From NCBI RefSeq assembly GCF_050947875.1, contig NC_134576.1:54998255-55062254 (forward strand): 64,000 bases of DNA, in the 5' to 3' direction. Source of the DNA: Dermacentor variabilis (taxonomy: Eukaryota; Arthropoda; Arachnida; Ixodida; Ixodidae). The translations under genes and the position numbers were made by a program. How positions within the stretch are numbered: position 1 is the first letter of the stretch; every line of letters begins with the position of its first letter. The notes below the pieces were generated by a model. That model was not told the DNA's origin. It saw nothing but the letters and a program-made list of their open reading frames with translations, and ran no database searches. Below are positions 3,811 to 54,333 of this stretch, one piece after another.

Positions 3811-5098
3811 CGAGGGCGAGTGAAATGAAAGTGAGCCAATGCGAATATATGACAAACGGGGTACTTTAATTAAAAGTAGCCCCCATGAGCATTTAGACAT
3901 TTGTCCTACTGACTAACGAGTCGCGCAATTCCCGTCTCATAAAGCTCCTTTTGTTGCTGCTTCAAAACGCCTGCAATTGACTTTCACGTCATCGTCCGAG
4001 ACGAATCTGGTTCCCTTGAGCTGTCTTTTTTTTGGTTGCCCCAACATATGGAAGTCGCAGAGCGACATGTCTGAGCTGTATGGCGGATGTTGCAGCGTTT
4101 CCCGCTTGAACTTCGCCAGTTTTGTATTAATGACATCAGCAACGTGGGGATGGGCATTGTCGTGGAACAAGATGACCCCATTCGTCAATTTTCCACGTAG
4201 TTTGCTCTTGATGGCGAAACGCAGCCGATCCGGCGTTTCACAATATCGGAAACAATCGATAATCTCTCAAGATTTAGCAAATTCTATCAGTAATGCCCCC
4301 TGACGATCGAAAAATAAAAGTCAACACATTTCCGGTGGAAATGACAGCCTTTGCTTGCTTGGGAGATGGTGAACTCGAATGTTGCCATCGTAAGCTTTGC
4401 CGTCGTGTTTCAGGCTCGTAGTAGTGGTGTGATGGTTCGTCTCCGATCACAATAGCAGACAAGAAATCATCACCATTATTGTGATGCCAGATCAGATGAG
4501 TAAAGGCAGCGCCGATCTTCTCCGTATTCTGGCCGTGGTTCAAAATCTTGCGCATCCATTGCGCACACTAGATCCGATAACCGAGATGTTTATGAATTAT
4601 GGTGTGAACGAAACCGTGACTGATGTTCACCCGCTCTGCCAGTTCATCGATGCTTATCCTCCGTTCTTGTCTCATCAGCTCATCAACCTTTGCAATATTG
4701 TTAGGGGTGATTGCACGATCGCTTTGGCCCGGTCTGGGATCGTCTTTGCAACTTTCACATCCTTCTTTGAACTGTTTGTTCCAACGCTTCACAGTGGCCA
4801 ATGAAATGCATTGTTCAATGTACACGGCAGCCATTCGGCGACTAATTTCTTTTTGAGAAACACCTTCAGCTGTCAAACACCTCACGGCACCACGCTGCTC
4901 AACTTCTGGAGCGTCCACTACGGCACGCAACCATGTTCAACCCAGTGTATGAGAGCATCAAAGAACATTTATCCTCACACCTGCGTGTCACTTTTGTAAA
5001 TTAGAGATGCCTGTGTGCTACGAGCAGGCCTTCTAGATAATGAACAGAACCATAATTGCGCGGTGTGGGTAGTCTGACTTTCATTTGACTCACCCTCG
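3811..5098 (-). mobile_element. Complete but inactivated mariner (DD34D) transposon
   Basis: A 1288 bp element bounded by TA target dinucleotides (3809-3810 and 5099-5100). The terminal inverted repeats match at 22 of 25 positions (CGAGGGcGAGTgAAATGAAA on the left against CGAGGGtGAGTcAAATGAAA on the right, reverse-complemented). Size, TA target and TIR organisation are standard for mariner. The coding strand is minus and the transposase ORF is interrupted. Confidence 0.93.
3937..4930 (-). pseudogene. mariner transposase pseudogene
   Basis: Cut-and-paste transposase broken into three readable pieces. 4930-4568 is the N-terminal helix-turn-helix region (EISRRMAAVYIEQCISLATV, then the HLGYRI end). 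4555-4274 continues in the same frame after an in-frame TAG at 4570-4568 and holds the first catalytic Asp (IGDEPSHHYYEPETRRQS). 4188-3937 is in another frame and holds the second and third Asp (HDNAHPHVAD and SLCDFH) with exactly 34 residues between them, giving DD34D. All three acidic residues survive, but at least one nonsense change and one frameshift make it non-functional. No ATG start was identified for the first piece. Confidence 0.92.
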
Positions 5099-7033: not shown

Positions 7034-7640
7034 TTAAGCGGTATGCGGAACTTTGTCAAATGCTTTCGCAAAATCAATAAATATAGCATCTATTTTTGGT
7101 CCACCATGAACGGTTTCGTGGAGGTCAATTACCAACTCGAATAGTTGAGTGTCACAGGAACGACCATGAAGGAAACCATGCTGATTGCTAGAGAAGAAAG
7201 TGTGATCTCTTAGAAATTTCATGACGGTGGCTGATATAATGGGCTCTAGTAATTTACAACATATGCTTGTTAGTGAAATGGGCCTGTAGTTTGAGACTAA
7301 GGAGGGATCACCAGATTTAAAAATGGTAATCTCAAATGCACACCTCCAGGCGTCAGGCACGCATTCTGTATCAACAGGCTGTTGAAAAATAGCAACCAAG
7401 ATACGTGATACAGCTCGTTTTGTAAGCTTTAGCAATATTGCGCAGATGTCATCTGGTCCCGGTGCCGAATTAACTGGTAGACGATCTATAGCGGCTTCTA
7501 CACCTTCGCGAGTTACTATGAGGTCATTCATTGAAGTATTTAAGCTGAAACAGTTCAGATCTGGTGGCACTGGTTCTTCTGATGTGAAAACCGAACAGAA
7601 AAAAAGCGTTTAATTCTTCCGCAACATCGGACTGCAGAAG
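7034..7640 (-). pseudogene. Non-LTR retrotransposon RT fragment (CR1/L2/Jockey-like)
   Basis: The 5' part of a reverse transcriptase domain. Motifs in order are SAPGPDDICAILLK, NYRPISLTSICCKLLEPII, QHGFLHGRSCDTQL and FIDFAKAFDKVPH, after which the similarity stops at TGA, before the YADD box. Upstream the same protein continues in another frame (DVAEELNAFF joined to CSVFTSEEPVPPDLN), separated by a single-base change in a T run near 7600. The fragment is truncated at both ends, so it is a dead copy. The clade is inferred from motif style only. Confidence 0.85.
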
Positions 7641-13108: not shown

Positions 13109-15650
13109 GTAAGTCTTGCAAGGCCTAAAATTACTTAGAATGGTGCTTTTTGGGGCATGTTGCTGTAGTATATAGTTCATACACATCACAATATAAATGG
13201 ACAGGCACTACTGTCAACTGTATGTTTCAGAACGACCTCGTAGATACATATCACTGGTTGCAAAAGATGGAATAAAGTTGACTATGTGCTGGTTCTGATT
13301 GCTTTAAAAAGTCACATCTATTTCGCATTCAATAGAAACAAAATGGTGACTCAGGCCCCCCTGTAATGAAGAGGCATGCTCACTCCACCTTTCGCCAAGT
13401 ATCTCCGCCTGAAAACAATGCCCTTATAACCACAAGAGCCCACGTACACAACCAAATGTATGAGTAATTTATTTATTTATTTATTTATTTATTTAGTCAC
13501 TTGCAATATGATGAGACAGCCGTTATACCAACCTTTCTAGAACCCAATCAAGTGACTCGAAAAAGACCCAGGCGCAACCCACGATGATGACTACGCACAT
13601 GCATTGAAGACATGACACGATAATGATATACAGACAAGAAAAAAGTGGAGGCACAATAATGGCGTAAATGTATTCAAATGGTGTGTCTGAAATGGTCATT
13701 TACGCACCATTCTGTTTAGTGATGTGTGCTTTCCAGAGGATAGTGACATGTCCTTTATTTCGCTTTCCCTTTCCTGTTAATTGTATATATGTGTTCAAAA
13801 CAAATAATAATGTGCTATATACTACAACCGTGCAAGTTGCCGTCACGAATGGGTGAGTGTGGTTCTTTTGAAATGTGTATTACATATCAGCTGCTATGGC
13901 TCATAAAGGGCAAAGATGGGCCGGCTAGTTTCGGGCACGAAGTACCACGTGAATTCTGTGCTGCTCGCGAGATGATTAAAGTGCAAAATTTTATGTATGT
14001 AAGGCACGACCTGTGTGGCTTTGTCAAGTTTCTTGTTTTGCCATTCAGACTCTTAATAAAGATTTCAGCAACGCCAAATGTCCCTATGGTCATAGCGAAA
14101 ATAATGAAAAAAAAATGAAATACAATGTTAACACAATGCGGCTTCAGTAAATAAAAGCTCTTGGCGCCTTAGTTTTGACCCAACGCGATCATGCATCTTA
14201 AACCCAGATATAATTTACTCCAATATAACGAAACTCTCGATATAAATAAGTACAACTTGATGTAACTTCTTGTCCACAGATCAGCACGTAAGCTAAACCT
14301 CAACATGACGGTGTGCGTTTAATTTACAAGCGCGATTTCAATATACCCTAACTTTGCTTTCAACGCGCGATGGAATACCGAGCCCATAAATGGAGTCTGC
14401 CATGGGCGCAGAAGGTTAAATTATATGCGGTTGTTAGCGAAGAAGGTTGCACCTCCTCACATTTCGTGCCCGCGCTAATGAGAATGGCCTCCGAAGCGGA
14501 GCAGGGTCGTCTCAGCTAGCAGCAAATTCAGCGGCGATTTCACCTGACTTGTGCGGTGTCGGCGCAGCATATCGCGCATTCGTATCGACATATTATGCAC
14601 CGCGTAGTTTTCTATTCGGAGCCTGCCTTGCTGGAGCGTGCTATGCAGTGTTTCGTTGGTATGACAATAATATGGACAGTGAGGCTAAATAATTTCCGCC
14701 GTCGGCGACGTCGCCGTGACGTCCCTTATCGAGTCGAAGTGCGATAAGATCGCGGCCGCCCGCCGTATGCTTGCGATAGACGCACGGGAAAGTGTGCGAG
14801 GGTGAGGGGAAGGTGGTGCCTTGATGCGAGGCGTCTTCATGAGTGCGCGAGGGGAGGGGGAAGAGGTTGCACGCCGTGTTCTTGCGAGCGCTAAGTAGCA
14901 GAGCGGAGAGATGAGCGCACAAGGGGGCTGATTAATTCGCGTCTCCTACTCCGGACGCGTTTGCACATGGCAAGGCTGAAAGCGGCCGCACGCGCCCTAT
15001 GTGGAAATTAATCTGCGGTGGAAGCAAAAGGCTAGCCGACACGAAATCGCTGATGGCTTCGGCTGTGCTGTGTTCTCGAGTGCCGTGTTTGCGCTGAAGT
15101 GACACGCAGCACGAAGGTGAATTCACTCGCCGCTGCTGCTGGCGTCCTTCACCACACCGCAGTTGTGACAGTGAGTGCCCGCGGTCACCTACGGGGATGT
15201 GTTCGTGTTTCACCGTACGCTCTCGACAGCATGCTTGTAAACTTAATTCTAACGGTAGTGAGCGAATGTTCACTGCAATTTATACGGCGGATAAAACTAC
15301 GAAACTTGCTTCACCTAGGTGAATCATACTTTGCTATCACAATGTTTCGCCTTTCAGGCGAAGCTGCGACTTTTTGTTGTGACATAGTCGTCCCTCGTTA
15401 GTGTGGGCACACAAGTGAGAAACACGAGAAGCTGTACTAGGACTAAATGCACGAACCTCCCGCCGGTATGCACCGAATGCGAGGTAACATACGGGCGGGT
15501 TACCAAGAAGCACAGTGGCTCGATGTGCGCCGTCTTTCCTCTAACTCAACGGGGGAGGGGGCGGCAGCTACACGAGAGCATATCTTGGTCGCACAGCCAA
15601 GCCCTAGACGGGGTGTGAATCATGCACTCTAAAAGTGCACAGCAACATTG
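13109..15650. other. Intergenic stretch, no gene seen
   Basis: Contains an (ATTT)n tract at about 13467-13497 and a GC-rich block (about 14440-15640) with short open frames lacking similarity. A short palindrome (CGCCTTTCAGGCG, 15349-15361) lies within it. Confidence 0.5.
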
Positions 15651-15652
15651 GT

Positions 15653-15661
15653 TCTGATTTT
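15653..15661 (-). promoter_or_regulatory. snRNA 3' box of the U2 gene
   Basis: On the minus strand AAAATCAGA lies about 10-20 nt beyond the U2 3' end and fits the metazoan snRNA 3'-end-formation box core (AAARNNAGA). Its presence argues that the U2 sequence is a real gene locus and not a processed copy. Confidence 0.6.
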
Positions 15662-15670
15662 AGATTCTTC

Positions 15671-15825
15671 GGTGTGGGCTGTACCTGGCAGCAGTGCAAT
15701 ACCAGGACAACCCGTGGCGCTGGAGGGGCAAGCCCCGTCCTAGCGCCGCCTTACAAAAATAGGATTAATATCGTTAGACCCATAATAGGGCCGTATCAGA
15801 TATTAAGCTGATAAGAACAGATACT
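15671..15825 (-). ncRNA. U2: U2 snRNA gene, 3' part (nt ~35 to end)
   Basis: U2 pairs with the intron branch site in the spliceosome. From 15825 the minus strand reads AGTATCTGTTCTTATCAGCT and continues AATATCTGATAC, matching conserved U2. It then shows stem IIa (GGCCC...GGGTC), the Sm site ATTTTTG (15760-15754), stem-loop III (GGCGCT...AGCGCC enclosing GGGGCTTGCCCC) and stem-loop IV (GGGTTGTCCTGG...CCAGGTACAGCCC) with a U2B''-type loop (TATTGCAC). All stems pair well, so the gene was probably functional before disruption. Nucleotides 1-26 lie 11.3 kb away at 27093-27118. The branch-point recognition region (GTAGTA) is interrupted at this end. Confidence 0.93.
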
Positions 15826-16022
15826 GTTTAGAAAAAGTTTATTTACACTATTTACAAGAGAGCATAAAAGCAATCATACAATCAACACGATGTAAAATGA
15901 CAATACAGAACTATACAGCGTGAAACACATACTTTACATGTATGATGATAGGGAACATTGTATATAGTACAAGGAAATGAAATTGAAAATAGTAACATGA
16001 AGTTGAAATTAAAGTGGCATAT

Positions 16023-18380
16023 TTATCGCCACTCCGGACGGAAGACTAGCTGCACTCGGCCGTTTCGAACATAAACAAACGGGCACGACCAGTGGCGGAG
16101 GAACTCCTGTTCCCCGAGGAAGAACAGTTCGTCCGAGAGGAAAGCGAGCACCTCTCGCCTCAAGCGGCCCATTATAGGCCACAGTGCTCTTCGGCGACAG
16201 TTTCCTGCCACAGCTTCACAGCGGTTTCGCCAAAGACTGAACAGGGCTGCCACGAGAAGAAGGTCGGCGAAACGCCCGCGCGGAAACCTTCCGCTCGATA
16301 CAAAATCCCGGACGCCCTGGCCTCGAAACCCCGCATGGACGGCGCGCCAAAATACACGTGCGACAACGCACTCGATTGTTGCGTGTCTGTTTGTCTCCAC
16401 CGACGTGCAGTTTGGACATGTGGAGACACGCACCACGCCCCAGCGCTCTAACCTATCCCGGGTTGGGAGCAGTCCCCAGCCGAGTTTCCAAACAAAATCG
16501 CGAAGGTGGCCAGGCAGCGTAGCCGTGGCAATGCGCTTCCACTGAGGACGATGCGCTATGGGACGTCGGTCAGGGGGCACCAAGGGAAGTAGCACAGCGC
16601 CCATTATTTCAACAACCCTGTCGGAGCAGGGGTCGACGTCCGGACACGTGGCTGACAGATGCCTGCGGAAGGCTACGCTTGTCCTGTACACTGCAGGAGC
16701 TTCCGCCGACTGCGGTCCACGATTCACGGGGCTCGTAGGAAGTAAGACCCGCAGTGAGGTGCCGAGGAAGTACCCTGCAAGGGTCTGCGCGGGGGAGCCA
16801 TCATTGGCCAGGGTCCGCATTAAAGTCCGCAGTAATAGTACGGAGGCTGTCACTGAAACATTCGGGAAAGATAAGCCGCCGCGATCGCGGGGCTGGGCTA
16901 ACGCCGGCCGTGCCAAAAGCTCAGTGCCACCCGCCCAAAAAAACGAGTGGGCACTGCTTTGCACACTCCTCAAGACACGAAGGGGGGGCTTAGCAACGTG
17001 GCACAAGTACCAAAAATTCCCTAAGAAGATCGACTGTACGAGGTAACGCCGTTCGAGAAGAGGCAAGTCGAAATCACGGGCTGCCTGAACGTTGTGCTTT
17101 AGTGTATTTATGACAGGCATCCACATGCCATCCCAAATGCCTGATGGATCGAAAGACAAACCCAAAATCTTTAGTTTAGGATGCCACTGTAATGGCGAGG
17201 CAATATGGAGACGTGAGTTTGGGGAACCAATGAAAAAATATTTACTTTTGGAATAATTTAGCCTTGCACCAGATATTGAACTGTAGTCTTGAAATGTGTT
17301 CAGGGCATAAAGAAGCGACTGTTCATTGTGGACATACAGTGTAATGTCATCCGCATATGCCGTTACTTTTACAGATGAGCTACCGGGTAGCGGAAGGCCT
17401 CTAATGTGCGGATGACGTTCTAAGGCTATTAGGTATGGTTCTAAGGATAAAATAAACAAAACTGGAGAAAGAGGGCAACTCTGACGGACCCCTCTCGTAA
17501 CGGGAAAGGGCCTACTTTCGCGTGAGTCTAAGGACAATGTGCTTTCTATGTTGCTGTACATTGCTCGGATCAGGTGAATAAAACTTGGGGGGAAACCGAA
17601 AGCGTCTAATGTTCCAAATATGTATTCGTGTTCTAAGTAATCGAATGCTTTTTCCTGATCCAGAGAGACTAACAAGCCTTGACTATGGCGACCAATCGTG
17701 TACTGAATTATGTCGCGTGTAACACACGAGTGAGTATGTATTTCACGGCCCGGTATTGAGCACGCCTGGTGCCACGCGATAAGCGACGGGAGGAGATTTC
17801 TAAGTCGGCGAACAATTACACAGGCTAAAATTTTGTAATCAACGTTTAGCAGAGTGATGGGACGCCAATCGTCGGGGTGCGTTGATGTGGGTTCTTTCTT
17901 GGGGATTAGTGAAATGCGACCTTTACCAAAGGAAAGCGGCAAGGTGCGATCTTCAAAGCACCGTCCTAACACTCGCGTCAGCAATGGTCCAATAGCGTCC
18001 CAGAACTCCGAATAAAACTCCACAGGGAGACCGTCTGGGCCTGGAGACGACCCACGCTTCATTGTATCCAGCGTCTCCTTGATCTCGTCACTGGATGGCG
18101 GAGCAAGGAGCGCTTCGCACGATTGGCTGTCAACGCGTGGCAGTGCGCTCAGCAGGGGATGAGCGGACGCTCGGGCAGCGTCGATGGAGAGAGTCTTTTG
18201 TGCCACGTTTCTGAAGTGCGCGACGAAGTCGTAAAAGTCGCGGGAACCGGCATCAGGCGGGGGGGCGTACGTCCGAATCCAAAGAATGGGCCGGTAATCC
18301 CGCCGGACGAATCTCGCCGCGGCGGGTAATCCCGCCGCGGCGAGCGTACCTGAGGACTTCGGGGTGCGCACACGGCGCAC
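16023..18380 (-). pseudogene. Element 1 ORF2, reverse transcriptase + C-terminal part (frame-shifted from endonuclease part)
   Basis: RT half of ORF2. In order: GSSPGPDGLPVEFYSEFW, DDWRPITLLNVDYKILACVI, VSLDQEKAFDYLEHEYIFG, GVRQSCPLSPVLFILSLEP, the catalytic YADD box (VTAYADDITLYV), a C-terminal zinc knuckle CPNCTSVETNRHATIEC, and a basic C-terminus ending FRPEWR. The usually invariant Gly of VRQGCPLSP is Ser here. No ATG opens this frame; the leading codon is GTG. It overlaps the endonuclease frame by about 130 nt, at a GC-rich palindrome. In element 2 the two halves are one continuous protein, so this copy is most likely inactive. Confidence 0.92.
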
Positions 18381-19461
18381 GCCTACAGCGCCAAGCGGCA
18401 GCCGACAGCGAGGAAGCGCGCACTAGCCGCTGGTAGCGCTCGACAAGCTCATTTTTCCACGCGCACATAACCGCCGTCGGAAGCGGGCTGCGCTGTGCGA
18501 TGCGCAACTTCGTCACCAACGCCGTCATTTCCCCGGAGACGCGAGCCCGGAGGGCTCGGCCCGACGCACTGCAGTGGTGACGCCACTGCTCCTTTAACAA
18601 ATCCCAGTCATCTGGGTCGGCTCCGATAAGGGACGCCCTAACGGCTCGCACTAGTCCAGCTTTGGACTCAAGGTCGTGCAGGACGCGGCAGTCGAGACGC
18701 CATGGGCCTCGAGCTGACGGAGACCCTGAGGGCAGCTCTAATACTAGCTCAAAGGGGCGGTGGTCGCTTAAATATACTGGCGACGTAGGGAGTGGGCGCA
18801 CCTTGGCGACATGGACGTAGCTGGTAAGACGCCGCGGTACATAGGCTCTGTCTAGTCTACTCGACGATGCCCCGCGGCGCCACGTCCAAACGTACGTACT
18901 CCCGTGAAGCAATTCATACGCGTCGAGGAGCGCAAACTGCTGCACCAGCCGACCTAGCTCCCTGGCGTTGCCGTTAGGCCTGCCCCTGCCAGGGCCTTGG
19001 ACATCTGCGTCCGAATCCAGCACACAATTGAAATCTCCCAAAAGAATAACCGGACGCGAATCTAGGAAATATACATCTAATGAATTGAAAAACGTGTTAG
19101 AATTCGCAGATTGCGCCGGACCATGGATACATAGAAATCGAATACGTGCAGAGTGGAATGTGCAGTCGAACGCCAGCACGCGTCCGAGCGCGTCGAAGGT
19201 TACGTGATGGTCGCGCAACAGATTACGGTTAAGAACAAGCACTCCAACGCCGCTCGAACGCGTGGTGGCGTACGAGAAGAAGCAGTCAATATTGTAAGCG
19301 CGCTTGAACATCAAGACATCGCTTAATTTAAAGAAATTTGTTTCTTGCAGGAAGAGGAGGTCGCAAGCCGACGAACGGGCAAAAGCGATCACCTCTGCCT
19401 GCTTTTGAACGTTGCGGAACCCATGCACATTAAAAGTCATCACTCTGAGTAAAAGATCCAT
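18253..19461 (-). pseudogene. Element 1 ORF2, APE-type endonuclease part
   Basis: Apurinic-like endonuclease that would nick the target DNA to prime reverse transcription. ATG at 19461 (MDLLLRVMTFNVHGF). The catalytic signature is present: N in FNVHGF, E in FLQETNFF, D/N in LLGDFNCVLDSD, RLDRAYV, and D/H in YLSDHRPFEL. The frame runs past the domain and ends at 18253 after a shift near the palindrome at 18313-18344, so endonuclease and RT are separated. It starts 76 bp after the ORF1 stop. Confidence 0.92.
18313..18344. repeat. 32 bp perfect palindrome (14 bp arms, TAAT loop) inside ORF2 of element 1
   Basis: CTCGCCGCGGCGGG, then TAAT, then CCCGCCGCGGCGAG. The 13 bp GGTAATCCCGCCG also occurs as a direct repeat at 18293-18305 and 18325-18337. 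It coincides with the frame break between endonuclease and RT. Confidence 0.95.
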
Positions 19462-19536
19462 ATTGGTAGATAAAGGGTGGGGTACCTTCAACTGTCGGGG
19501 GCGAGTTCAATTGCGCCGAAATCGGCGCAGAGAGTC

Positions 19537-20808
19537 TCATTTCTTCCGCGCTGGCGACCCGGCAGAAGCGCGAGGCTTCCGGGGTCGAGAGGAAGCCCTC
19601 AATGGGCTCCTGTCACGCAACGGAATGTCCGAGTCGGTGGTTGATCCGCGGTGTCTTTTCGTGCCAGTGGTGGGGAGGGAGGGTGGCACGAAAATGTCCG
19701 GGCTGCTGCCGCTCACGTCACTAGCAGTACAGTCGTCTTCAATTCTTGTAGACGACGACGCACTCGAGGAACTGGTAGATGCGTCGCCCAGGGACGCCGC
19801 GTCGTCATCCTCGCCAGGCGTCTCATCGATCACAAGGCTGCACGCCGCCGAGTCTACAGACAGACAAGGCGACAAAACAGCCTCTGGAGCGTTATCCTCT
19901 GTGAGCGCTCGCGATGTTAGGGGTTCGACGCGGCGTTCTCCGGCTATCTCCTGGGTGCACAGAGGTATGACCGGTTCCGGAACGCTCTCGCAGTTCTCCG
20001 GTTCGGGGCTCGCGGGGGACGTTGTCGGCGTTTCAGCTGGTGCCGCTTGTAGCGCATCTTCCGGGGCGGGAGTCAACGCGGCTGGCGAATCGGTCGGTGG
20101 ATCAGGTGCGTGAGTACTCGACTGGAGCGGCGGGAAGTTCTTCGACGCCGCCTCCGAGTAGGTTCGCCGCAGGGAGCAGGCGACTGTTGCATGTGGATCC
20201 CCGCAGCGGCGACACGGTAAAATGCAGCCCTTACCGATGTGGCCATAGATGCCGCACCTTGCGCAGAAGGGCGCCGTGCACTGCACACGGAAATGGCCCG
20301 AAGACCCACAACGCCGACAGACGCGCTGCATACCTTTGTAGTCGCAGGTCACGCGGTGGCCTGCCACTTTCAGGTAGTTGGGGACTGGTGAGCCGGGCTT
20401 CATCTCGATACGAACGTAGCGCGTTCCAGTGGTGACAGTGGGACGCGAGCCCATCACACCTCGGTTGATGTGCAGTACTTTGCCGAACGGCGACAGCGCT
20501 TGAGCCAGCGTTTCGCTGGAAACGCGGCACGGTAGAAACATGACGGTCACTTGCGTGACTTGCGGGCTCAGGGGAACGATGGAGACGCGTTCATCCCCGA
20601 TGACGAGGCTGGCGGCGTCGACGATTTTAGCCATGGCGGCTTCGCTCTTCAGGGTGACTTGATAATTGCGTCCGCCGAAGTGTTGCACGCAATACACTTC
20701 CTCCAAGGATACTATCGAAACCGTCGCGTCGACGACGTCTTCGGGACTTGACCCCTCAGGGACCACAACATCGAAGGCATAAGCCTTCGGGGGCGGTTGG
20801 CTTGCCAT
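19537..20808 (-). CDS. Element 1 ORF1: CCHC zinc-knuckle nucleic-acid-binding protein
   Basis: Gag-like ORF1 protein expected to bind element RNA in the ribonucleoprotein. ATG at 20808 in a good context (GCGACCATGG); the frame is open 13 codons further upstream but only from GTG. The 423 aa protein has an N-terminal RRM-like or fold-only region (about 1-150) and three consecutive zinc knuckles at about residues 170-220: CRRCGSSGHFRVQC, CARCGIYGHIGKGC and CRRCGDPHATVAC (the last with one residue fewer before His). The C-terminal half is Pro/Ser/Glu-rich low-complexity, ending in a basic tail (RKPRASAGSPARKK). Intact. Knuckle spacing and flanking sequence match ORF1 of element 2. Confidence 0.9.
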   Translation of the reverse strand: MASQPPPKAYAFDVVVPEGSSPEDVVDATVSIVSLEEVYCVQHFGGRNYQVTLKSEAAMAKIVDAASLVIGDERVSIVPLSPQVTQVTVMFLPCRVSSETLAQALSPFGKVLHINRGVMGSRPTVTTGTRYVRIEMKPGSPVPNYLKVAGHRVTCDYKGMQRVCRRCGSSGHFRVQCTAPFCARCGIYGHIGKGCILPCRRCGDPHATVACSLRRTYSEAASKNFPPLQSSTHAPDPPTDSPAALTPAPEDALQAAPAETPTTSPASPEPENCESVPEPVIPLCTQEIAGERRVEPLTSRALTEDNAPEAVLSPCLSVDSAACSLVIDETPGEDDDAASLGDASTSSSSASSSTRIEDDCTASDVSGSSPDIFVPPSLPTTGTKRHRGSTTDSDIPLRDRSPLRASSRPRKPRASAGSPARKK

Positions 20809-20902
20809 GGTCGCGACGACGTTCGGCAAACCAAAGAACGCCTGCACTGGAGATGAACCCGGCCACCAAGTACTGGTGGCCGAGATAGTCTACCGCCGCT
20901 CG

Positions 20903-20909
20903 ACTACAC
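20903..20909 (-). other. U2-like heptamer GTGTAGT between the two retrotransposons
   Basis: GTGTAGT equals U2 nt 31-37, which are missing at both outer junctions. It sits between the 3' end of element 2 (AATAAAAATTCTC...) and the 5' end of element 1, where a leftover target segment would be expected. Seven bases alone could be chance; the position makes it credible. Confidence 0.6.
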
Positions 20910-21408
20910 ACAGAGAATTTTTATTAACATGTTACTCTCATGTCAAAAAACTATGTACATCAGTCTAATGCACAGTGTACAGAATCACATGGCATACAGC
21001 AAAATGGACAATCCATGCGTATGATGATATATACAATGCATATGATCGTGGTATATACAAGAGTAAATGTTTTCGTGAAAGATTTGTTAACATAGTTCTT
21101 TGCTAATAAATGCAATTTACACATTGTATAAACAGAGGATCACCGACAATACACTGTGTGGTTTGTACACTTGACAGCATGCACGTAGGCGAATAACAAT
21201 ACCAGACTTCTTGGGGTTGGTTGTCTATAAACCAGGAATTCACGTCGTTTAACTACATTTTCTCACCAAGACTGGCTTCTTTCCCTGTGGAGTTCGTAGA
21301 TTACTCCCTTCTTGTATAATTGTTATCTACATTATGTTTGTTTGCTTGAAGCGTATCTCCTAGCTGCGAGTGCATTGTATCGCTAGGAGGGGGCATGCAT
21401 GCATGGTA

Positions 21409-24400
21409 TTAGACGTGGCTCATGGGCGCTATGATTTTGTCGTTTTTGATCCTCCAGAACCGTGTGTGCCACCTTCGAAGAAACTGGTCTACTCCATTTC
21501 TAGCAAGCTCTTTGGATAGAATCCTTTTCATCCATATCCGCGTATATTTTAGAACGGGGTAAACGGCTCTTTGCGGGCGCCTCTTCAACTCAGCCAGTCC
21601 TCTTCTTTTCCAGATACAAAACATGATTACAAGTGTCAAAAGCTTCTCAAAGCGGGATTTCTTGGTCACCTGATGGAGTAATTTACATTTGAATGTGTTG
21701 CTTGCTACCCTCCAGACCGCTTTGGCCGGTCCGCACTCCGTGAGGGCATGTTTTTGGGTTTCTGGTTGATCGCAGTTGGGGCATCGGTCTGTTTCAGTTA
21801 TTCCCAGGTGTTCTAGTCGTGTTTTCGTGGGTAGTACGCCCCATCTTCTTTGCCATTCGAAGTCTCGTATTGGTCCCGGTAAGTCCGTTTGCGCCCACCA
21901 TTTCCATTTTGCCGGGGTGCTTTTCGTTGCTTCTTCTAGTTCCAGTTCTGTTATTGCTATAGCGGCATTGACTTCAGCTGGCTTGACAGTTGCTATAGGG
22001 GTGTCCGGGCACAATTCTTCAATAGCTTTACAGGTGTGAACTGCGTCTTTATAAAACTCTAGTGGCCGCTCGGCGCGTGGGCCATGCCATTTGACTGGTG
22101 TTACAAAGCGATCCAGTGTGCTGAGCCAATAGCGTAGCACCGTGCTGCCCACATACTGGTCGCTGTTTAGCAGTGTTGCGAGTGTTTTAGCCGCTAGGAT
22201 CCTTGCTGTCTGGGCAATATTGGGAATTGTGAGTCCCCCCCTCTGTTTCGGTAGCCGTAGAATCCGTCGGGGTAGGGGTGCGGTTTTCTTTTGCCACAAG
22301 TATGTACTGATAATAGATTCCAGTTTTTTGGCCACTAACCTGGGCATTCGTGTGATCCTCGCCACATAAAAGGCGGGTGCGCACATCTTGGCTTTGATGA
22401 TTTCTGCTTTTTCTATAAGACTAAGTTCCGGGGTTGTTATTTCCTCTGCTGCTTTTCGTGCTTTATTGAGGGGATCTATCCAACTTTTCTCCGAGACGTT
22501 GCCCGCTTCGAACCAGAGGCCAAGTACTTTAACCGCTTCCAAGAACTGTATGTCAGGTAGGTCGCGTTCGGAAAAGGAGCCAAAACGGAGTGCTTTGCTT
22601 TTGTTTTCGTTTATTTTGGCGCCGGAGAGGGTGGCGTATTCCTTAAAAATGTGTATTGCTGTTCTATAGCTGCTTTCATCTCTAATAAAAAGGGATATAT
22701 CGTCCGCAAATGCCGAGATTTTCACTTCGTGGGATCCCGGTAATGGGAAGCCCCGGATCCTTGAGTCTTCGTTGATTTTTCGCAACAAGGGATCTAATGC
22801 CAATACGAACAAGCTGGGTGATAAGGCGCAGCCTTGGCGTACACCCTTGTTTATGGTAAAACGTCTGGATACTTTGTTGTTGATTAGTATCTCGCTTTGG
22901 GCGTCGCGATAAAGTGTTCGGATGGTGTTAATGAACTCTTGTGGAAAGCCAAAAGCCTGCATAACTTGAAACACATATGCCCGACGCACGTTATCGAAGG
23001 CTTTTTCTTGGTCGAGGGTTACAAAGGCACCTTTATACTGTTTTGTTTTGGCATACGCGATAACATCACGGGTGAGGGTCAAGGCCGCAAAAATGGACCT
23101 GCCCGGGATTGCAGCTGCCTGGAAATCGGATATGATGGTTGGTGTGATATCGCTTAATCTGTTTGCTAGTATGGACGTAGCAATCTTATAATCTGCATTG
23201 AGTAACGTCACTGGGCGCCAGGCATTGACGTCCAGTGGGTCAGCATTATCTTTGAGAAGAAGAACAATTCTCCCCTGCGTAAAAGATGCAGGTTTTCTGT
23301 GGTTCGTAATGACGTCATTCAGTGTTTTAACTAAGCGTTCGCCTATCTCGGGAAAGAACTCATGGTAAAAGCCAATACGGATTCCGTCCGGTCCGGGGGC
23401 CGATTCTTTGTTCATGCTGCGGATTACCCGCAAGGCCTCTTCTTTTGTAATGGGTGCATACAATAGGCTTGCGTCTTCGTCTTTGAGTTGTGGGAGTCGG
23501 GGTAACCACGAGTACGTGGTGGGTTCGGGCTGGTCGTCATTCTCTTGCAGGATTGCTTGGAAGTGGTCTACGAAGATCTTTTCTATGGCTGTCTGGTCTG
23601 TTATGTTTCCCTCGTGAGAGCGTATTTGCCTAATGTTGATCTTGGCTCTCGTTTGATTGTCTTCGTGCTGAATGCTTCCAGCAATTATGGACTGCTGTCC
23701 TTGTAGTCCCATTGGTTGGTTCAATCCCTGTTTTAGTTCTTTCATGATCTCTCGGTATCTGTCGCGCATGTCGCTAAGATATTCTTGTGTACAAAAGGTT
23801 AGGTCGCCCCCTCTTTCTATTATAAGGATCCGTCTGGAGATTTCGTTCAGTTTGGCCGTGAGATTCGCTTTTCTGTTTCTTCCTGCGTCTATTAGAATGT
23901 CTTTCCATTGATTTTTCAGATCATCCCAGTCTGTGTCGTCTGGAGAAGATGCCATGTATTTTGCGAGGTTCTGTCTAATGATCTGGCATGTTTCAGGGTC
24001 CCGTGTGAGGTTGGCGTCCATTCTCCACCTGTTTGGTAGCGGCGCTGGCCCACACTGTCCTTTGATCTTTAGACTTAGGGGTCTGTGGTCGCTGAAAGGT
24101 TTGGAACCTTCCGGGCCATTACTGATATGGATGTCCAAAACCTCGGAGAGTAGTTCTGCAGAGACATAGGCTCGGTCGAGGCGGGAATGTGTCGACCCAC
24201 AGGAACGGGTACTCTCAAAAAAGTTGCCGTGTGCTACTACCCAAGCGTCTGATAAATTGTAGTATACTAGTAATTTGCGTAATTCCCTTGCGTGGTGGTG
24301 GGGTTTCCCCTGCCCCGGTCCTCTGATATCGCGAAAGGCGTCCAGGACGCAGTTGAAGTCACCCATCAACACACACGGTAGCTTGGTGGGTATGTATTCC

Positions 24401-24783
24401 CAGAGATCCTTAAAAAACTCATTGGTTAGGTTGCGAGAGACCGGGGCGTAAACGTTGATTATTCGAATTTTTTGGTTGCCCACGTACATATCTAGGCATA
24501 TGATGCGGCCCTTCGTGTCGTAGGTACAAAAGGACTTGTTGCGGTAACGCCCAGACACAAAAACCACACCTGTGCCACACGATTTGGAGCACGTGAGAGA
24601 AAAAAAAGCGTCTACTCCGTTTTGTTGTCGAAAAGATACCACTTCTTGTGGAGTGCGTATGTTCGTCTCTTGCAGAAAAAGAATGTCAATGCCCTTTTCT
24701 CGGGCGAAGGAAAGAAGCTGTCTTTGCTTATCGGGTTTGCGCAATCCTCTAACGTTAAACGAGGCGCAATGAAGGCATTCCAT
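21409..24783 (-). CDS. Element 2 ORF2: APE endonuclease-reverse transcriptase, intact
   Basis: 1124 aa from ATG at 24783 (MECLHCASFNVRGL); the frame is open further upstream, with an ATG at 24912, but homology starts here. Endonuclease (about 1-240): FNVRGL, FLQETNIR, NVYAPVS, LMGDFNCVLDAF, SRLDRAYVSAE and FSDHRPLSL. RT (about 440-760): SAPGPDGIRIGFYHEF, AWRPVTLLNADYKIATSI, VTLDQEKAFDNVRRAYVF, GVRQGCALSPSLFVLALDP and the catalytic FADD in ISAFADDISLF. The C-terminal region has RRWGVLPTKTRLEHLG and the zinc knuckle CPNCDQPETQKHALTEC. No stops or frameshifts. Motif wording is that of the Tx1/L1 group. Likely competent for target-primed reverse transcription. Confidence 0.94.
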   Translation of the reverse strand: MECLHCASFNVRGLRKPDKQRQLLSFAREKGIDILFLQETNIRTPQEVVSFRQQNGVDAFFSLTCSKSCGTGVVFVSGRYRNKSFCTYDTKGRIICLDMYVGNQKIRIINVYAPVSRNLTNEFFKDLWEYIPTKLPCVLMGDFNCVLDAFRDIRGPGQGKPHHHARELRKLLVYYNLSDAWVVAHGNFFESTRSCGSTHSRLDRAYVSAELLSEVLDIHISNGPEGSKPFSDHRPLSLKIKGQCGPAPLPNRWRMDANLTRDPETCQIIRQNLAKYMASSPDDTDWDDLKNQWKDILIDAGRNRKANLTAKLNEISRRILIIERGGDLTFCTQEYLSDMRDRYREIMKELKQGLNQPMGLQGQQSIIAGSIQHEDNQTRAKINIRQIRSHEGNITDQTAIEKIFVDHFQAILQENDDQPEPTTYSWLPRLPQLKDEDASLLYAPITKEEALRVIRSMNKESAPGPDGIRIGFYHEFFPEIGERLVKTLNDVITNHRKPASFTQGRIVLLLKDNADPLDVNAWRPVTLLNADYKIATSILANRLSDITPTIISDFQAAAIPGRSIFAALTLTRDVIAYAKTKQYKGAFVTLDQEKAFDNVRRAYVFQVMQAFGFPQEFINTIRTLYRDAQSEILINNKVSRRFTINKGVRQGCALSPSLFVLALDPLLRKINEDSRIRGFPLPGSHEVKISAFADDISLFIRDESSYRTAIHIFKEYATLSGAKINENKSKALRFGSFSERDLPDIQFLEAVKVLGLWFEAGNVSEKSWIDPLNKARKAAEEITTPELSLIEKAEIIKAKMCAPAFYVARITRMPRLVAKKLESIISTYLWQKKTAPLPRRILRLPKQRGGLTIPNIAQTARILAAKTLATLLNSDQYVGSTVLRYWLSTLDRFVTPVKWHGPRAERPLEFYKDAVHTCKAIEELCPDTPIATVKPAEVNAAIAITELELEEATKSTPAKWKWWAQTDLPGPIRDFEWQRRWGVLPTKTRLEHLGITETDRCPNCDQPETQKHALTECGPAKAVWRVASNTFKCKLLHQVTKKSRFEKLLTLVIMFCIWKRRGLAELKRRPQRAVYPVLKYTRIWMKRILSKELARNGVDQFLRRWHTRFWRIKNDKIIAPMSHV

Positions 24784-25088
24784 TGCGAGAAACAAAAGAA
24801 AAGGAAAATAAAGAGGGGAAAGAAAAGCAGTCTTACAAGGGGTGGAGGGTACCGACGAGCGGTTGAATGTTGTGTCGGTTTTCGTGGTATACTGTTGGTT
24901 CGTATTGTTCATTACCACGTCCGTATTTCTCTTCCCTTTCGTTTACTCCTCCTCACCTGGCAGTTTCGATTGTGGTAAATAGCGTCAATCTTATCTGCCG
25001 CTAGTGGTGGTTTGAGCGGCTTCGTCCCATTCACGTCGTAGCGGGGTGCCTTACGTGATAACTCTGTTTTGATTGTGTGAGGAGCGAC

Positions 25089-26696
25089 TTACAGGACCGC
25101 GCCCTCTCCCCCTTTCCCACTCTGCGCCAATACTTCCATGTCGCTATCTGATGAATCAAATTTCTCGATTGCCGGTGATGTTTTCCTCGGTTTTTTGTGT
25201 GTTGCCGTTTTAGCATCGCCTTCGCTACTGGATAGCTCCCCTTTCTTTCGCCGTTGTGTGTTTGGGCTTTCGCTTTGCTTGCCGCGACCTTGTTCTTGGT
25301 TCCTGTTTTTCCGTGACGATCTAGATCGTTGTCTTGGTTCGTTCTTTAAGGGATTATTGGTTGGCGTCGTTTTTGCTTCTTGCCTACTCTGGTGGGTCAT
25401 AGGACCTTTGTTTGCCGTCGTTTGCATGCCTGCCGTCAACGTATCTTGTGGGGAAGGGGGCGGAGGCATGCCGCGATGATCTTCTGTCTCTGGCACGCGG
25501 TAGCGTCCGCTGCTTACGATCGGTTGTTCTTCTAAGTTTGTTTTCTTTGTCGTATGTGGTCCCGAAGGCTGTTTATCGTTCACTAGTTTTGAGGCCTGTG
25601 TGGTGGGGTTAGGTTCAGGCGCTTGGGGGCTCGGTCCTGACGCGCAGCATTCAGTTGTTTTGTTCTTTTCTTGACCAGCATTCGTTTCACTATCAGTGAC
25701 AGTCGTCGTGTCGCTCATGTCTCCTGAGGAGCTAGATGGCGAGGGTTCCTCGGTTGTTTTCCCCTCTGTCAAATCAACAGGGCTGGTTGATTTGTTTGTT
25801 TCTGTGCTTGCATTGCCCGATGATTCCTGGCTGCTGGTGTTGCTTGGCGTTTCGCCATTCCAAAAGTCCCGTCGGGGGGTTGGAGGCTTCATCACGCGGG
25901 GTTGAAGCACTTGTAGCCCGGAAGGTTTCGGTAAAGCTGGGAATTCTTTTTCCGATGGTGTGCCGCGCGCTGCCGCTACGTCTGCCTGTGGGAGTGCCGA
26001 CACCGCCCCCGCGTACGATTTCGTATACGTGCGGCTGCGAAAGCACGCGCGCGTGCTATGATGTCCTCCGCATTTTCGGCATTGTTCATCACATTCTGCG
26101 TCGCTGTGCCCGAAAGTGCCACAACGCTTACAAAACGCGGCCGTGCATGTATTGGCCATGTGGGACCCGTCCCCACAGCGTGCACAAACACGGCGCATGC
26201 CCCGATACTCGCACATAATGCGGAATCCCTGAACTGTTAAAAAGTTTGGTATGGGTCTGGTCATCTCAATCCTTACCACACGTACTCCGTTTAATTTGTT
26301 GGACCGGTTGTTGGCCTTCGCAAATGATACACTTTTGATTTTGCCATATTGTTGTAAGGCAAATGACAAAGCTTCCGCGGACAAGTACACGGGATAGCGA
26401 TAGACGTTAACAAAAGTCACTGGTGGCCCGACCGCGTCGACTGGCACTTTAACATCATTGACTAAGAATCCTTCTGCAACCATTAACGCAGTCGCCTGTG
26501 TGGCATTGCGAGTACACACAAGAAATTTAGCCCCGCCCATATGCTGTAGGGCCAAGACGCTATCCTCCCCAGCTGTTCGCTCTACCGCGTCGATAAGATC
26601 ATCGATAGAGATGTCTCCGTCAGGAGCGTCGAACAAAAAACAATTTTCCCTCAAAGGGGTCTCACTGCTATGCTCAGTGCTGGGGGGCGTTGCCAT
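25089..26696 (-). CDS. Element 2 ORF1: CCHC zinc-knuckle protein, intact
   Basis: 535 aa from ATG at 26696 in good context (GGCAGCATGG). The frame also stays open upstream through the 5' UTR and the U2 5' piece, but without an ATG. The N-terminal globular region (about 1-190) holds the segment VVRIEMTRPIPNFLTVQGFR, closely paralleled in element 1. Three knuckles follow: CARCGDGSHMANTC, CKRCGTFGHSDAEC and CRKCGGHHSTRAC. The C-terminal half is Ser/Thr/Pro-rich and basic (KNRNQEQGRGKQSESPN). Role inferred: RNA binding in the retrotransposition complex. Confidence 0.9.
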   Translation of the reverse strand: MATPPSTEHSSETPLRENCFLFDAPDGDISIDDLIDAVERTAGEDSVLALQHMGGAKFLVCTRNATQATALMVAEGFLVNDVKVPVDAVGPPVTFVNVYRYPVYLSAEALSFALQQYGKIKSVSFAKANNRSNKLNGVRVVRIEMTRPIPNFLTVQGFRIMCEYRGMRRVCARCGDGSHMANTCTAAFCKRCGTFGHSDAECDEQCRKCGGHHSTRACFRSRTYTKSYAGAVSALPQADVAAARGTPSEKEFPALPKPSGLQVLQPRVMKPPTPRRDFWNGETPSNTSSQESSGNASTETNKSTSPVDLTEGKTTEEPSPSSSSGDMSDTTTVTDSETNAGQEKNKTTECCASGPSPQAPEPNPTTQASKLVNDKQPSGPHTTKKTNLEEQPIVSSGRYRVPETEDHRGMPPPPSPQDTLTAGMQTTANKGPMTHQSRQEAKTTPTNNPLKNEPRQRSRSSRKNRNQEQGRGKQSESPNTQRRKKGELSSSEGDAKTATHKKPRKTSPAIEKFDSSDSDMEVLAQSGKGGEGAVL

Positions 26697-27092
26697 GCTG
26701 CTGCCGGCGTAGCTCCTCCGAGACTCGTGTCGGAAACTGGTTTCCACTTGTGCCGTACAGCTGGCGCTGAGCGCTGCTGTACACTGGTAGTCGGCGGGCT
26801 CAGCAGGTGGTGCTGGATCCGCTCCGAGTTGATGGTTGGCCGGCGGTACGGCAGGGGGCGCTCGCAGCAGGGCTGGCTCCCGGGAACATCGGCCGCACGG
26901 CAGGCGCTCGGGGGCCCACCGGGTTCCTCCGCTGCACAGCAGATGGCACTCGGATGAGCAGGTGGGCAGGATGGTGGTCCGTGCCTTGACGATGGGTTCT
27001 CGTAGACTCCTGGAGGTCCGCCGTGGTCCCGACGCGACCTCCGGGGCAGCAGTGGTGACTCGTCGAAAGTTCTTCCCGGCCTGGGGCAGAGT

Positions 27093-27118
27093 TCTTAGCC
27101 AAAAGGCCGAGAAGCGAT
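27093..27118 (-). ncRNA. U2: U2 snRNA gene, 5' part (nt 1-26)
   Basis: The minus strand from 27118 reads ATCGCTTCTCGGCCTTTTGG then CTAAGA, identical to the near-invariant first 26 nt of metazoan U2, including the U6-pairing region. It then breaks into element 2. Upstream (27119-27200) should be the U2 promoter; I could not confidently place a PSE. Together with 15671-15825 this is one U2 gene with about 11.27 kb inserted. Confidence 0.93.
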
Positions 27119-27431
27119 GCCGTAGATCACGTCTCGATGTAACCCGCTTCAAACAAACCTAGAACAAGGAGCCAGCGAAGTGCGAGAGAGAACTGCATTT
27201 CTCAAATAACTGGCCAAATTTGAACATAAAAAAATACGCTTCCCTATATGAATAATCGGCACACAATATAACTTTTATTTTAAATCGCAATAGATTTTAC
27301 TTATAACGTTTCCAATTTGAAACAACAATCTACGTACCATGCCTGACTGCCCGTTAGGTTTGTGGCGCCATCCTGTGGCTAAAATGATAACTTAGGTGTC
27401 TCGCTATGGTCACGTGGCTTTGTTTCTACAG
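27119..27431. other. Upstream flank of the U2 gene
   Basis: Should contain the distal and proximal sequence elements of an snRNA promoter. No motif was recognised with confidence. Confidence 0.4.
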
Positions 27432-27498
27432 CGGGAATCCCGGAATCCCGTGGGCCAGCGGCAACTACGGCGCCATGGGTCCACGGCCTGTAGTGCAG
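27432..27498 (+). other. Candidate 67 nt exon
   Basis: Acceptor GCTTTGTTTCTACAG and donor CAG|GTATGG bracket a Gly/Pro-rich frame (SGNYGAMGPRPVVQ). The composition resembles low-complexity segments of RNA-binding proteins, but this is not evidence of identity. Unsupported by homology. Confidence 0.25.
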
Positions 27499-30400
27499 GT
27501 ATGGTGTATTGGAATAGGCCAGTGTATCGTGCGTGCAACAGAACAATGGGAGAACCGAAGACGCTTATGCGATGACGCCATCAGTACGGCGCTGCGATCG
27601 ACCGGCGTGCCTAGAGCGGGAAATTATACATGCTGTGCGAAACCCCGCATTTATAAATTGAAACGGTCTGAAATCAATTGAACTTAATATAACTCACAAA
27701 AAATAAATACTACAAACTGTTGGGATACTTCAATAACGCCGACTAAGCTTGCACGTTTCCAAGCACAGATCTTGTAGTGTTCCTGATCGTATGCTCAGCG
27801 TTTCAGTTGCAGAAGACAAATACTTCTCTACTCGTTCCGTTCGGTAAGCACGCATATGCTTTTAGTATTTCGAAACACACGGCGATAAGAAGCCCGGAAG
27901 GATACCTGCACTGTGCCTGGTGGGTTGCACGGGATTCCTTTCAAGTTGCATCAACCATAAAGGCGATCGCCAGGTTTCACTGAAGAAAAGAAACACACAC
28001 GCACGCACACTCACACGCACACATACACGGACGCACGCATGACCTCAACGACAACCATAACTGCTGATCCCAGGGACCTTGTGTTGCACCTTTATTTTTC
28101 CTTTTGCCAGCAATGACTCGAGGCTGCAGTGACAGATGGCGCTGCAGTAGACCGGCGTGCTCAAGCAATCTCGGCGGCGCATTTACACCCGCACAATTCA
28201 CACGCGTAATCCATTTTTCCAGGGCAGCAGGGCCATCGACTATGGTGCCGCCGCTCGGGGGAACGCGAACCACGGCGGCGCCGCGCCTCTGGGCGCTTTT
28301 GCTCCCTAAGAATGTCATTTGCCTTGGTACGAACGCAGGAAACGCCCCTAGATCCATTCGTCCCTAGACAACGCTGTCTGCACAACTTGAAACGTGCGCT
28401 GCACTGAAGTTGCGACCTGCTGCATTCGCTGCTCTGCCGTGCTCTGCGGTAATAAATCATGTTTTCTCTGTCACAGTGAGTGCATATCAAAATGGTACAA
28501 TCGCATGGTGGTGAGTGAAACGTTTCAAATAACGACGGGCTACCAGTATTTATGGATGACTTTAGGGCCGAAGCATCGCTTGTGATTCTCAGCCGGAAAT
28601 CTGCACCATGTGAATGTATCGTAAAACTAGCTCAGGTCATTTCGCATACCGCAAAGCAACATCATGCTCGCAATTGAAACGCGTAAGTGGGTGTTACGTG
28701 CCCTCGCCTCAACTATGCCCGGGTGCTGCGCGCTTCCCTCGGATGCCACATGTACGGATCCCTTTGTCAATGCCCTCGCCGTGCATGAACTGTCGTGAAA
28801 GCTTGCACCGTATGGGGTTTTATCTTGTCCCATAACAATAATCGTCATCTTGCGCGCCTTTACTTTCTTCTACGCTGCTTGCCTGGCACGGATATATGCG
28901 CACGTCTTCAACATGACTTCTTGATAGGAAAGTAGCGAATTTACAGTTCTTAAGGAAAGAAACGCACGAAACTCTGATGATGATTATCGTTGTGTGACCA
29001 GGTAAGCCTCAGTGCAAACGTTTTTAAGAGTGTGTAGTGCACATCGTTAACTTGTGAACAAATGTCCATATTTCCAGCCCCCTTAAGCTATCATTTCCTT
29101 CTACATTGTTCCATATCTTCAGTGCAGATCGTTTTATCGGTGGGCACATTCTCGTTTGCTTGTCCTTGCCCTTTCGCAGGAGCTGTACCTTAACGTTCAA
29201 TTGCAAATAAAGTATGAAGTGTTGAAAACTGTGCCAATTTTCGTATAATTTGGTGGCTCCAGAATGCTGTAAAAAGGTCCGCAGGAACATTCGGGCTAGT
29301 TGTGCCAATTCATGTTGATTCATAATAATTTGACCTCGGCTATTGTCAAACACATTGCAAAAGAATGAATAACGGTGTAACTCAGTTTCAATCAGCAACG
29401 TATGTGGCATAGGAGAAAAAAAGGAGAGAAAAGAATGTTTGCAGTTGAGGTTGCATTGCTGATCATGATTCTAGTGGAATCGTGTTGTTTTTGCATGAGT
29501 TTACTGCCCTTGCTCTTATGATTCGCTGAAACTTTGTCAACATTCTTACTGCTGCTTCTGGTCGATGTAGGTGCTATATTTGAAGCAAACTTTCATCAAG
29601 TAATCTTGCCGTTTTGCATTTGAACACCTTTTCATCTGCCATTTATTCGTTCCTGAACCTGGAAGAGATGACTAAATGCTAAAGGTGTTAAGGCCAACCT
29701 CCAAAATATTTAATGGTACAAGTAATCTTCTAATAGCTGGCATGTCCGGCTGTACAAATTGCCGCTTGCAATTCTGTGCCCAGCTGGGTGCTGCTAATCT
29801 TGCCATTTTGTAGACACTTTCCTCAGCTGCTCAATCTTGCCACAACAGCTACTGCACTTGTTTCTTCCATCTACTATCCAGAGCAACAAGGCAGAAGCAC
29901 GGAATCAGTAATGTTTTTAGCACAAAATGCTTGGTGTAATGCGATTGCCATTCGTCTATATTAGTAAAGCAAGCACATTAAAATCATCTGCAAAGGCCAA
30001 GTATTCATTGTTAATCTTGGACACCGCAGACAAATATCCTTCTGTAGAACGTGAAAAGCATTCTCTGAGCTAGGAACACAGCTCTAGCCAAGAGGAAAGG
30101 TAACATAAAGCTGGGACACTCGTGTTGTCACACGGCTCGCTTGAATGGCTCTTTGCTCCTGCACATAATGGCCTCTCTCTGAAGCCAACTTCTGCAGAGT
30201 TATACGACTTGCAATGCCGAGGTTTGTTGGGGGACCCTGACCCTCTGCAACACATACTGAAAGGACACTTGAAACAACTTTGCCTGCTACAAGTACTCAG
30301 CAGACACTCTCCCAGCAGTCAGGTTTTTGAAGGGCTTGCTGGACCATATATCAGCCCTCATCTTGCATGTTTTGTCCTACAGTGTTGACAACTTGTTGGA

Positions 30401-43034: not shown

Positions 43035-43212
43035 CCTGTCCAGCAGCCTTTCACCGGCCTGCACATAATGAGTTTCCTGCGGTTACGGGCGGGCGAAACT
43101 TACGAAGATACGAACTAGGAACGCGAGCCAACTTGCAACTAAGTTTTGTAAATAATCGGTTGCATTTCTCCATTGGAACTAAATTGGCTAGGAGATGGAA
43201 TTCGCAGCGTGT

Positions 43213-54321: not shown

Positions 54322-54333
54322 TCATGACAAGGA

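Follow-up and report, generated by a model that had tools for sequence, protein, structure and literature searches.

Two APE-type LINEs in tandem within a U2 snRNA gene of a hard tick probably share one target site

Structure of the split U2 gene

The window, i.e., the whole stretch of 64,000 nt that was analysed, contains a U2 snRNA gene in two pieces. The 5′ piece (27093..27118, −) matches U2 nt 1–26 exactly, and the 3′ piece (15669..15825, −) starts exactly at nt 35 and extends to the 3′ end of U2. When 12-nt exact matches to U2 nt 1–68 were searched for on both strands of the 64,000-nt window, only these two pieces were recovered. A single U2 (RF00004) was found by Rfam in the window at 15874–15669 (−), scoring 113 bits (cut-off, 46); the first ~35 model positions of this match were forced onto the tail of the adjoining element B. 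The 3′ piece carries an Sm site motif, ATTTTTG (15754..15760, −), and AAAATCAGA lies directly past the U2 3′ end (15653..15661, −). AAAATCAGA resembles the 3′-box consensus. The presence of both the Sm site and the 3′-box-like sequence suggests that the split locus is a U2 gene rather than a reverse-transcribed pseudogene. Interrupted in this way, the copy presumably no longer works as U2, and other U2 genes presumably sustain the tick.

Between the U2 pieces lie two LINE-type elements on the same strand, arranged head to tail, with element A followed by element B. An earlier sequence-only reading of this DNA had described a U2 gene split by two tandem retrotransposons, with nt 1–26 on one side and nt ~35 onward, including the Sm site and the 3′ box, on the other, and both parts of this description were confirmed. 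It had also held that the elements fill the U2 gap exactly. The outer borders are indeed exact; as a refinement, the trinucleotide AGT between A and B looks like a remnant of U2.

An assembly artefact, or a chimera in which U2 nt 1–26 is the element's own head acquired via template switch, was weighed against an insertion into U2. SINEs with snRNA-derived heads reportedly exist, according to Kojima in 2015, and the locus is known from assembly sequence. However, the U2 pieces flank the elements in the expected order and orientation, and the 3′-box-like sequence follows the 3′ piece; with the junctions in other genomes described below, we consider an artefact or chimera very unlikely.

Coding capacity of elements A and B

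Element A (20906..27092, −) is a LINE-type retrotransposon of 6187 bp with both ORFs open. ORF2 (21409..24783, −; 1124 aa) encodes an APE endonuclease, a reverse transcriptase (RT) with the motif FADD, and a zf-RVT domain (Pfam PF03372, PF00078, and PF13966, respectively), and endonuclease and RT motifs were both present in the motif check. Its best PDB match was human LINE-1 ORF2p (3.2e-63). ORF1 (25089..26696, −; 535 aa) comprises two RRM-like folds followed by CCHC-like knuckles, as assessed by alignment, an AlphaFold model, and PDB matches. The model was poor overall (mean pLDDT 57.6, pTM 0.33), whereas residues 11–160 were better modelled (10-residue blocks from 69 to 97) and formed two RRM-like units. 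The best PDB match of ORF1 was a two-RRM fragment of hnRNP A1 (E 6.3e-07), with a TM-score of 0.42 by target length and an rmsd of 7.3, indicating that the RRM units match better than their arrangement. The knuckle-like C-rich motifs after the RRM units were recognized by eye in the alignment, and Pfam zf-CCHC_4 matched them below threshold only. The ORF1 protein most likely acts as a partner of the element RNA by binding it.

A long open frame runs from U2 into ORF1 of element A. We regard it as meaningless, since long open stretches also occur in the two remaining frames at this place, and the frame in question has no ATG ahead of the ORF1 start. In addition, the 5′ ends of the elements matched no known RNA, HDV-like ribozymes included, in an Rfam search of 20600–27700 with E up to 5.

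Element B (15826..20902, −) is a LINE-type retrotransposon of 5077 bp whose ORF2 is frameshifted. ORF1 (19537..20808, −) contains a zf-CCHC domain (PF00098, 0.00013; also in the alignment). The ORF2 endonuclease piece (18253..19491, −; PF03372, 4.2e-13) and the RT piece with the motif YADD and zf-RVT (16023..18380, −; PF00078, 1.7e-32; PF13966, 5.8e-9) lie in different frames. The YAP endonuclease motif is present in A and absent from B. Near the 5′ end of element B, at 20881–20861 (−), a perfect 8-bp inverted repeat was noted by eye, in which GGCCACCA and TGGTGGCC are separated by a 5-nt loop.

The A–B border reads TGTGTGT-AGT-CGAGC. The AGT (20903..20905, −) is a probable remnant of U2 nt 35–37 by sequence match, and GTGTAGT at 20909–20903 equals U2 nt 31–37. 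A match as good as this seven-base one is reached by about 1.2% of random 20-mers from the window; taken alone, GTGTAGT is only suggestive of a U2 remnant. AGT is possibly a 3-bp target duplication of element B. Three short tandem repeat arrays were detected in 15400–27800, and none of them lies at a junction.

Junctions with U2 in a Dermacentor silvarum gene model

We found further U2 junctions in a predicted protein of 993 aa from Dermacentor silvarum (P0121). Its order is an A-like ORF1, a U2 5′ end, a second ORF1, and another U2 5′ end that is read in a different frame. The first U2 peptide corresponds to U2 nt 3–35 codon by codon (11/11) and then departs from it. The second corresponds to U2 nt 2–28 (9/9 codons), which places this junction at nt 28 or 29. 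U2-derived 7-mer peptides gave eight matches among the 285 proteins, all of them in P0121, whereas the average over 500 shuffles of U2 was 0.034. P0121 was thus the sole protein showing U2 peptides, i.e., 1 of 285 overall and 1 of 46 ORF1 relatives.

The sequences that follow the two junctions were compared with the 5′ UTRs of the window elements. The 16 residues past the second junction match the A 5′ UTR at an equal distance from U2 with a score of 32, which was reached by none of 2414 window slices (maximum 26.4). When the same segment was taken at 45 residues, the match was less clear; none of 200 shuffles equalled it, whereas one of the 100 other slices of the window did. The stretch past the first junction showed no match to the A or B 5′ UTR (45 and 62 of 100 shuffles were as good), and the second ORF1 of P0121 is ~38% identical to both A and B. 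Because the stretch is unlike both 5′ UTRs and the ORF1 is equally far from both elements, we took this second Dermacentor element as a third family.

The ORF1 start could be marked in 20 of the 46 ORF1 relatives, four of which (P0133, P0135, P0140, and P0143) have >25 residues ahead of it. None of these four contained a U2 7-mer; therefore, U2 specificity may not extend to the whole clade.

Mollusc-associated loci

One scan of genome contigs yielded two loci, L001 and L002. L001 (JAHXIV010000038.1, 2–3678) belongs to a symbiont bin from the bivalve Taylorina and is evidently animal DNA; its element is probably a clam LINE sitting in a bacterial symbiont bin. The locus contains an ORF2 28% identical to that of A, followed by AATAAA, poly(A), and U2 from nt 35 to the end (129.9 bits). 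Its poly(A) tail joins U2 at nt 35, the same base as in element B. Three proteins of 'Sedimenticola sp.' MAGs (P0191, P0196, and P0205) are 46–58% identical to the L001 element, suggesting that symbiont bins carry host retrotransposons. L002, from a Bathymodiolus symbiont record, encodes an ORF1 and an ORF2 related to those of the window elements, and no U2 match was found in it. The L002 ORF1 (22–1365) combines zinc knuckles with a GDSL-lipase/esterase-like domain (Pfam, 2.7e-12), and the A ORF1 has no such match. No tRNA genes were found in the window, L001, or L002. Viral contigs gave no match to the U2 patterns or the ORF2 profile (0 of 124 pattern stretches confirmed).

The recurrence of U2 junctions in P0121 and L001 makes site-specific insertion a better account than chance or misassembly, and it is these junctions in other genomes that support site specificity. 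They also bear on the chimera considered above: the Dermacentor 5′ junctions fall at different U2 bases (nt 28 or 29, and nt 35), as target junctions do, and L001 displays the 3′ side alone. Alternatively, a LINE without target preference may have hit U2 by chance and a second one may have landed beside it. The window genome is known from one locus, which would suit such an accident. However, two distinct lineages lie within the same few U2 bases, and two P0121 junctions and one L001 junction have to be added; an accident of this kind is extremely improbable. We therefore regard A and B, very probably, as two site-specific APE-type (Keno-like) LINEs that home to one spot of U2 in a hard tick.

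Relatives of the elements and RT tree

Among the best 120 of 122 ORF2 matches, the best-scoring named relatives were from Haemaphysalis, Rhipicephalus, Ixodes, and Hyalomma, with a fish and plants lower, and the nearest relatives were 65% and 57% identical. The 38 named proteins among the 46 ORF1 relatives were all from Dermacentor, Rhipicephalus, or Hyalomma. A hard tick is the most likely host. No protein named Keno or Tx1 was present among the relatives (best 120 of 122; 46 of 46; best 120 of 2888), where many rows are nameless.

An RT tree was built from 68 rows, i.e., 65 chosen from the 285 proteins plus four window and locus sequences, minus P0030, whose RT stretch was too short. The tree holds no labelled Keno or Tx1 sequences. 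A and B fell into one 20-row clade (100/99) of two window, five named, and 13 nameless rows, and the named rows (5/20) were all from ticks, namely Haemaphysalis, Rhipicephalus, and three from Ixodes scapularis. Element A grouped with P0001 and P0002 (100/100) and, more widely, with the Rhipicephalus protein (98/95). Element B grouped on a separate branch with P0022 and an Ixodes protein (100/99). As the ORF1 relatives from Dermacentor, Rhipicephalus, and Hyalomma suggest a host other than Ixodes, the split of A and B would predate the parting of Ixodes from the other hard ticks. L001 belonged to a different RT clade (11 rows, 100/99). The only fish protein in the tree, P0053 from Oryzias latipes, was placed outside the A/B clade; it has no element label and thus tells nothing about Keno.

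Comparison with known U2-specific elements

Keno is described as an APE-type, U2-specific element of frogs, fish, lancelet, and hydra (PMC4640811), and a U2 sequence from manatee has a Keno-like match (PMC9323068). Keno was named in the sequence-only reading as a fish element; its U2 specificity stands, and its hosts are broader than fish. U2-specific Utopia elements are described from many arthropods, including Ixodes scapularis, and from oomycetes and others (PMC4640811). The same reading had proposed an arthropod/chelicerate U2-targeting system not known to be described. What stands is that APE-type elements lie exactly in U2, with ticks as their best-scoring named relatives and with junctions in P0121 and L001; among the titles and abstract openings of open-licence papers, we found none on APE-type U2 elements in ticks or molluscs. 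Targeting of U2 in arthropods as such is not new, as Utopia, with its restriction-like endonuclease, shows (PMC4640811).

Utopia and the window elements share a U2 target at nearly the same place as well as tandem or multi-family occupancy; Utopia shows occasional tandem insertions in Nasonia and different families in one Phytophthora U2 array (PMC4640811). Utopia generally encodes one protein, with the restriction-like endonuclease after the RT (PMC4640811), whereas the window elements have two ORFs and an APE endonuclease before the RT. With Pfam at 0.001, no restriction-like endonuclease was detected after the RT in A or B, where only zf-RVT was found. The Dada transposons resemble the tick elements in using fixed sites in small-RNA genes, here U1, U6, and tRNA genes, but they are DNA transposons with a DDE transposase and 6–7 bp target duplications (PMC3706591).

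The order of APE endonuclease followed by RT in ORF2 is that of LINE-1; however, LINE-1 is not known to be U2-specific. In the Tx1 clade the layout is L1-like, with zinc knuckles in ORF1 and with APE, RT, and a zinc-binding C-terminus in ORF2, and this layout was found in the window elements, with the A knuckles lying below the Pfam cut-offs.

The likeness to Keno is close. Both A and B have an APE endonuclease and an RT (PF03372 and PF00078; in B on two pieces), and they interrupt a U2 snRNA gene in the region around nt 35–39; P0121 also shows insertion in U2. The tick elements may belong to a true Keno lineage that ticks received by descent or by transfer, with the 4-nt difference at the 3′ side being a matter of where the element end is drawn. 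The endonuclease type and the target gene are the same, the junction lies within 4 nt, and the 5′ flank of B probably ends at U2 nt 37, the insertion point given for Keno (PMC6136364); moreover, Keno is spread across frogs, fish, lancelet, and hydra (PMC4640811). However, in Keno the 3′ flank begins at nt 39 of U2 with TCTGTTCTTATCAG (PMC6136364, PMC4640811), and Utopia copies also resume at nt 39 (PMC4640811, PMC6136364), whereas B and L001 resume at nt 35 with AGTATCTG and thus keep AGTA before the Keno flank, and A keeps AGT. The host also differs, being a tick and, for L001, probably a clam. The element boundary relative to Keno is arguable, as the A at nt 35 may be part of the tail. We hold a true Keno lineage to be a serious possibility, although somewhat on the doubtful side.

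Alternatively, U2 targeting may have arisen or shifted independently of Keno at the same conserved core, with the nick 4 nt away. The 3′ junction at nt 35 in B, the AGT at the end of A, and the well-supported RT clade in which all named members are ticks favour an independent origin, and Utopia and Keno provide a precedent for parallel evolution at the U2 site (PMC4640811). Against it, L001 lies outside the tick clade and shares the nt-35 junction, so that this joint is not tick-only, and the 3′ junctions number two clean and one partial. We regard an independent origin or shift as almost an even matter. As judged from sequence, the tick elements resemble Keno in how they work and may be its close kin. 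They were not filed as Keno because the published 3′ joint differs from theirs and the RT tree lacks a labelled Keno.

Proposed insertion mechanism

Three 3′ junctions were observed, of which two are clean (B and L001) and one is partial (A). Element A ends in AATAAAAATTCTCTGTGTGT followed by AGT, element B in AATAAACTTTTTCTAAAC followed by AGTATCTG, and the L001 element in AATAAATTTATGAAAAACAAAAAAA followed by AGTATCTG. AATAAA occurs in the 3′ ends of both A and B, and U2 resumes at nt 35 after B; the AGT after A equals U2 nt 35–37. In A, B, and L001, these alignments are consistent with a 3′ joint at U2 nt 34/35, although the A at nt 35 could instead belong to the tail in L001. In contrast, the 5′ side is not fixed. 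U2 is retained up to nt 26 ahead of A and up to nt 28 or 29 ahead of the Dermacentor counterpart of A, whereas it reaches nt 35 ahead of the second Dermacentor element and probably nt 37 ahead of B.

Target-primed reverse transcription gives an exact 3′ joint and imprecise 5′ joints, and the joints of the tick elements fit this process. Precise 3′ and loose 5′ joints are also described for Utopia and R2 (PMC4640811). We propose that the endonuclease would nick U2 on its bottom strand, between nt 34 and nt 35. The RT would then prime cDNA at the nicked end from the polyadenylated RNA of the element, as in target-primed reverse transcription. A variable cut of the second strand would leave a 5′ joint that loses a few bases (A and its Dermacentor counterpart), loses none (the second Dermacentor element), or duplicates three (B). 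The nick would fall within GUAGUA (nt 33–38), the branch-site-recognition sequence, through which U2 pairs with the branch site of the intron.

Two rounds of insertion at one U2 gene would produce the A–B tandem. If A came first, insertion of B at nt 34/35 with the 3-base duplication would yield A-AGT-B-AGTATC directly. If B came first, A would need a 37-nt U2 remnant upstream of B. The broken ORF2 of B is a weak hint that B is older.

Beyond this locus, a wider scenario may be considered tentatively, with more doubt than confidence. A tick-wide lineage of APE-type LINEs would have specialised on the U2 core GU/AGUA (nt 33–38) before Ixodes and the other hard ticks split. At least three families would share, and stack in, the same U2 genes, nicking 4 nt from Keno and Utopia, and with the clam lineage alike this would represent a third, partly independent capture of the spliceosome's least mutable stretch as a landing site.

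The branch-site-pairing part of U2 can hardly mutate, which may be why Keno, Utopia, and the tick elements settle there. The U2 genes are described as a low-copy-number repeat and hence a poor niche for a parasite restricted to U2 (PMC4640811). With two distinct lineages stacked in a single tick U2 gene, this niche puzzle becomes testable in another animal group. Ticks, and probably the clam, would widen the hosts of APE-type U2 elements beyond frogs, fish, lancelet, and hydra. If it is specific, the endonuclease would be a compact fixed-site insertion enzyme to study.

Other features of the window

A 632-aa open frame at 41166–43064 (−) matches Peptidase_M13_N (neprilysin-like, 1.3e-9) and is probably a tick gene or an intronless copy. 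Other mobile-element remains lie at 21–908 (+), 59320–60765 (+), 7034–7570 (−), 53676–54344 (−), and 4568–4930 (−). One is a frame for RT and RNase H, two more are RT frames, another is an RNase H-like piece that scores below its cut-off, and one is an HTH piece whose match to the Mos1 transposase is sub-threshold.
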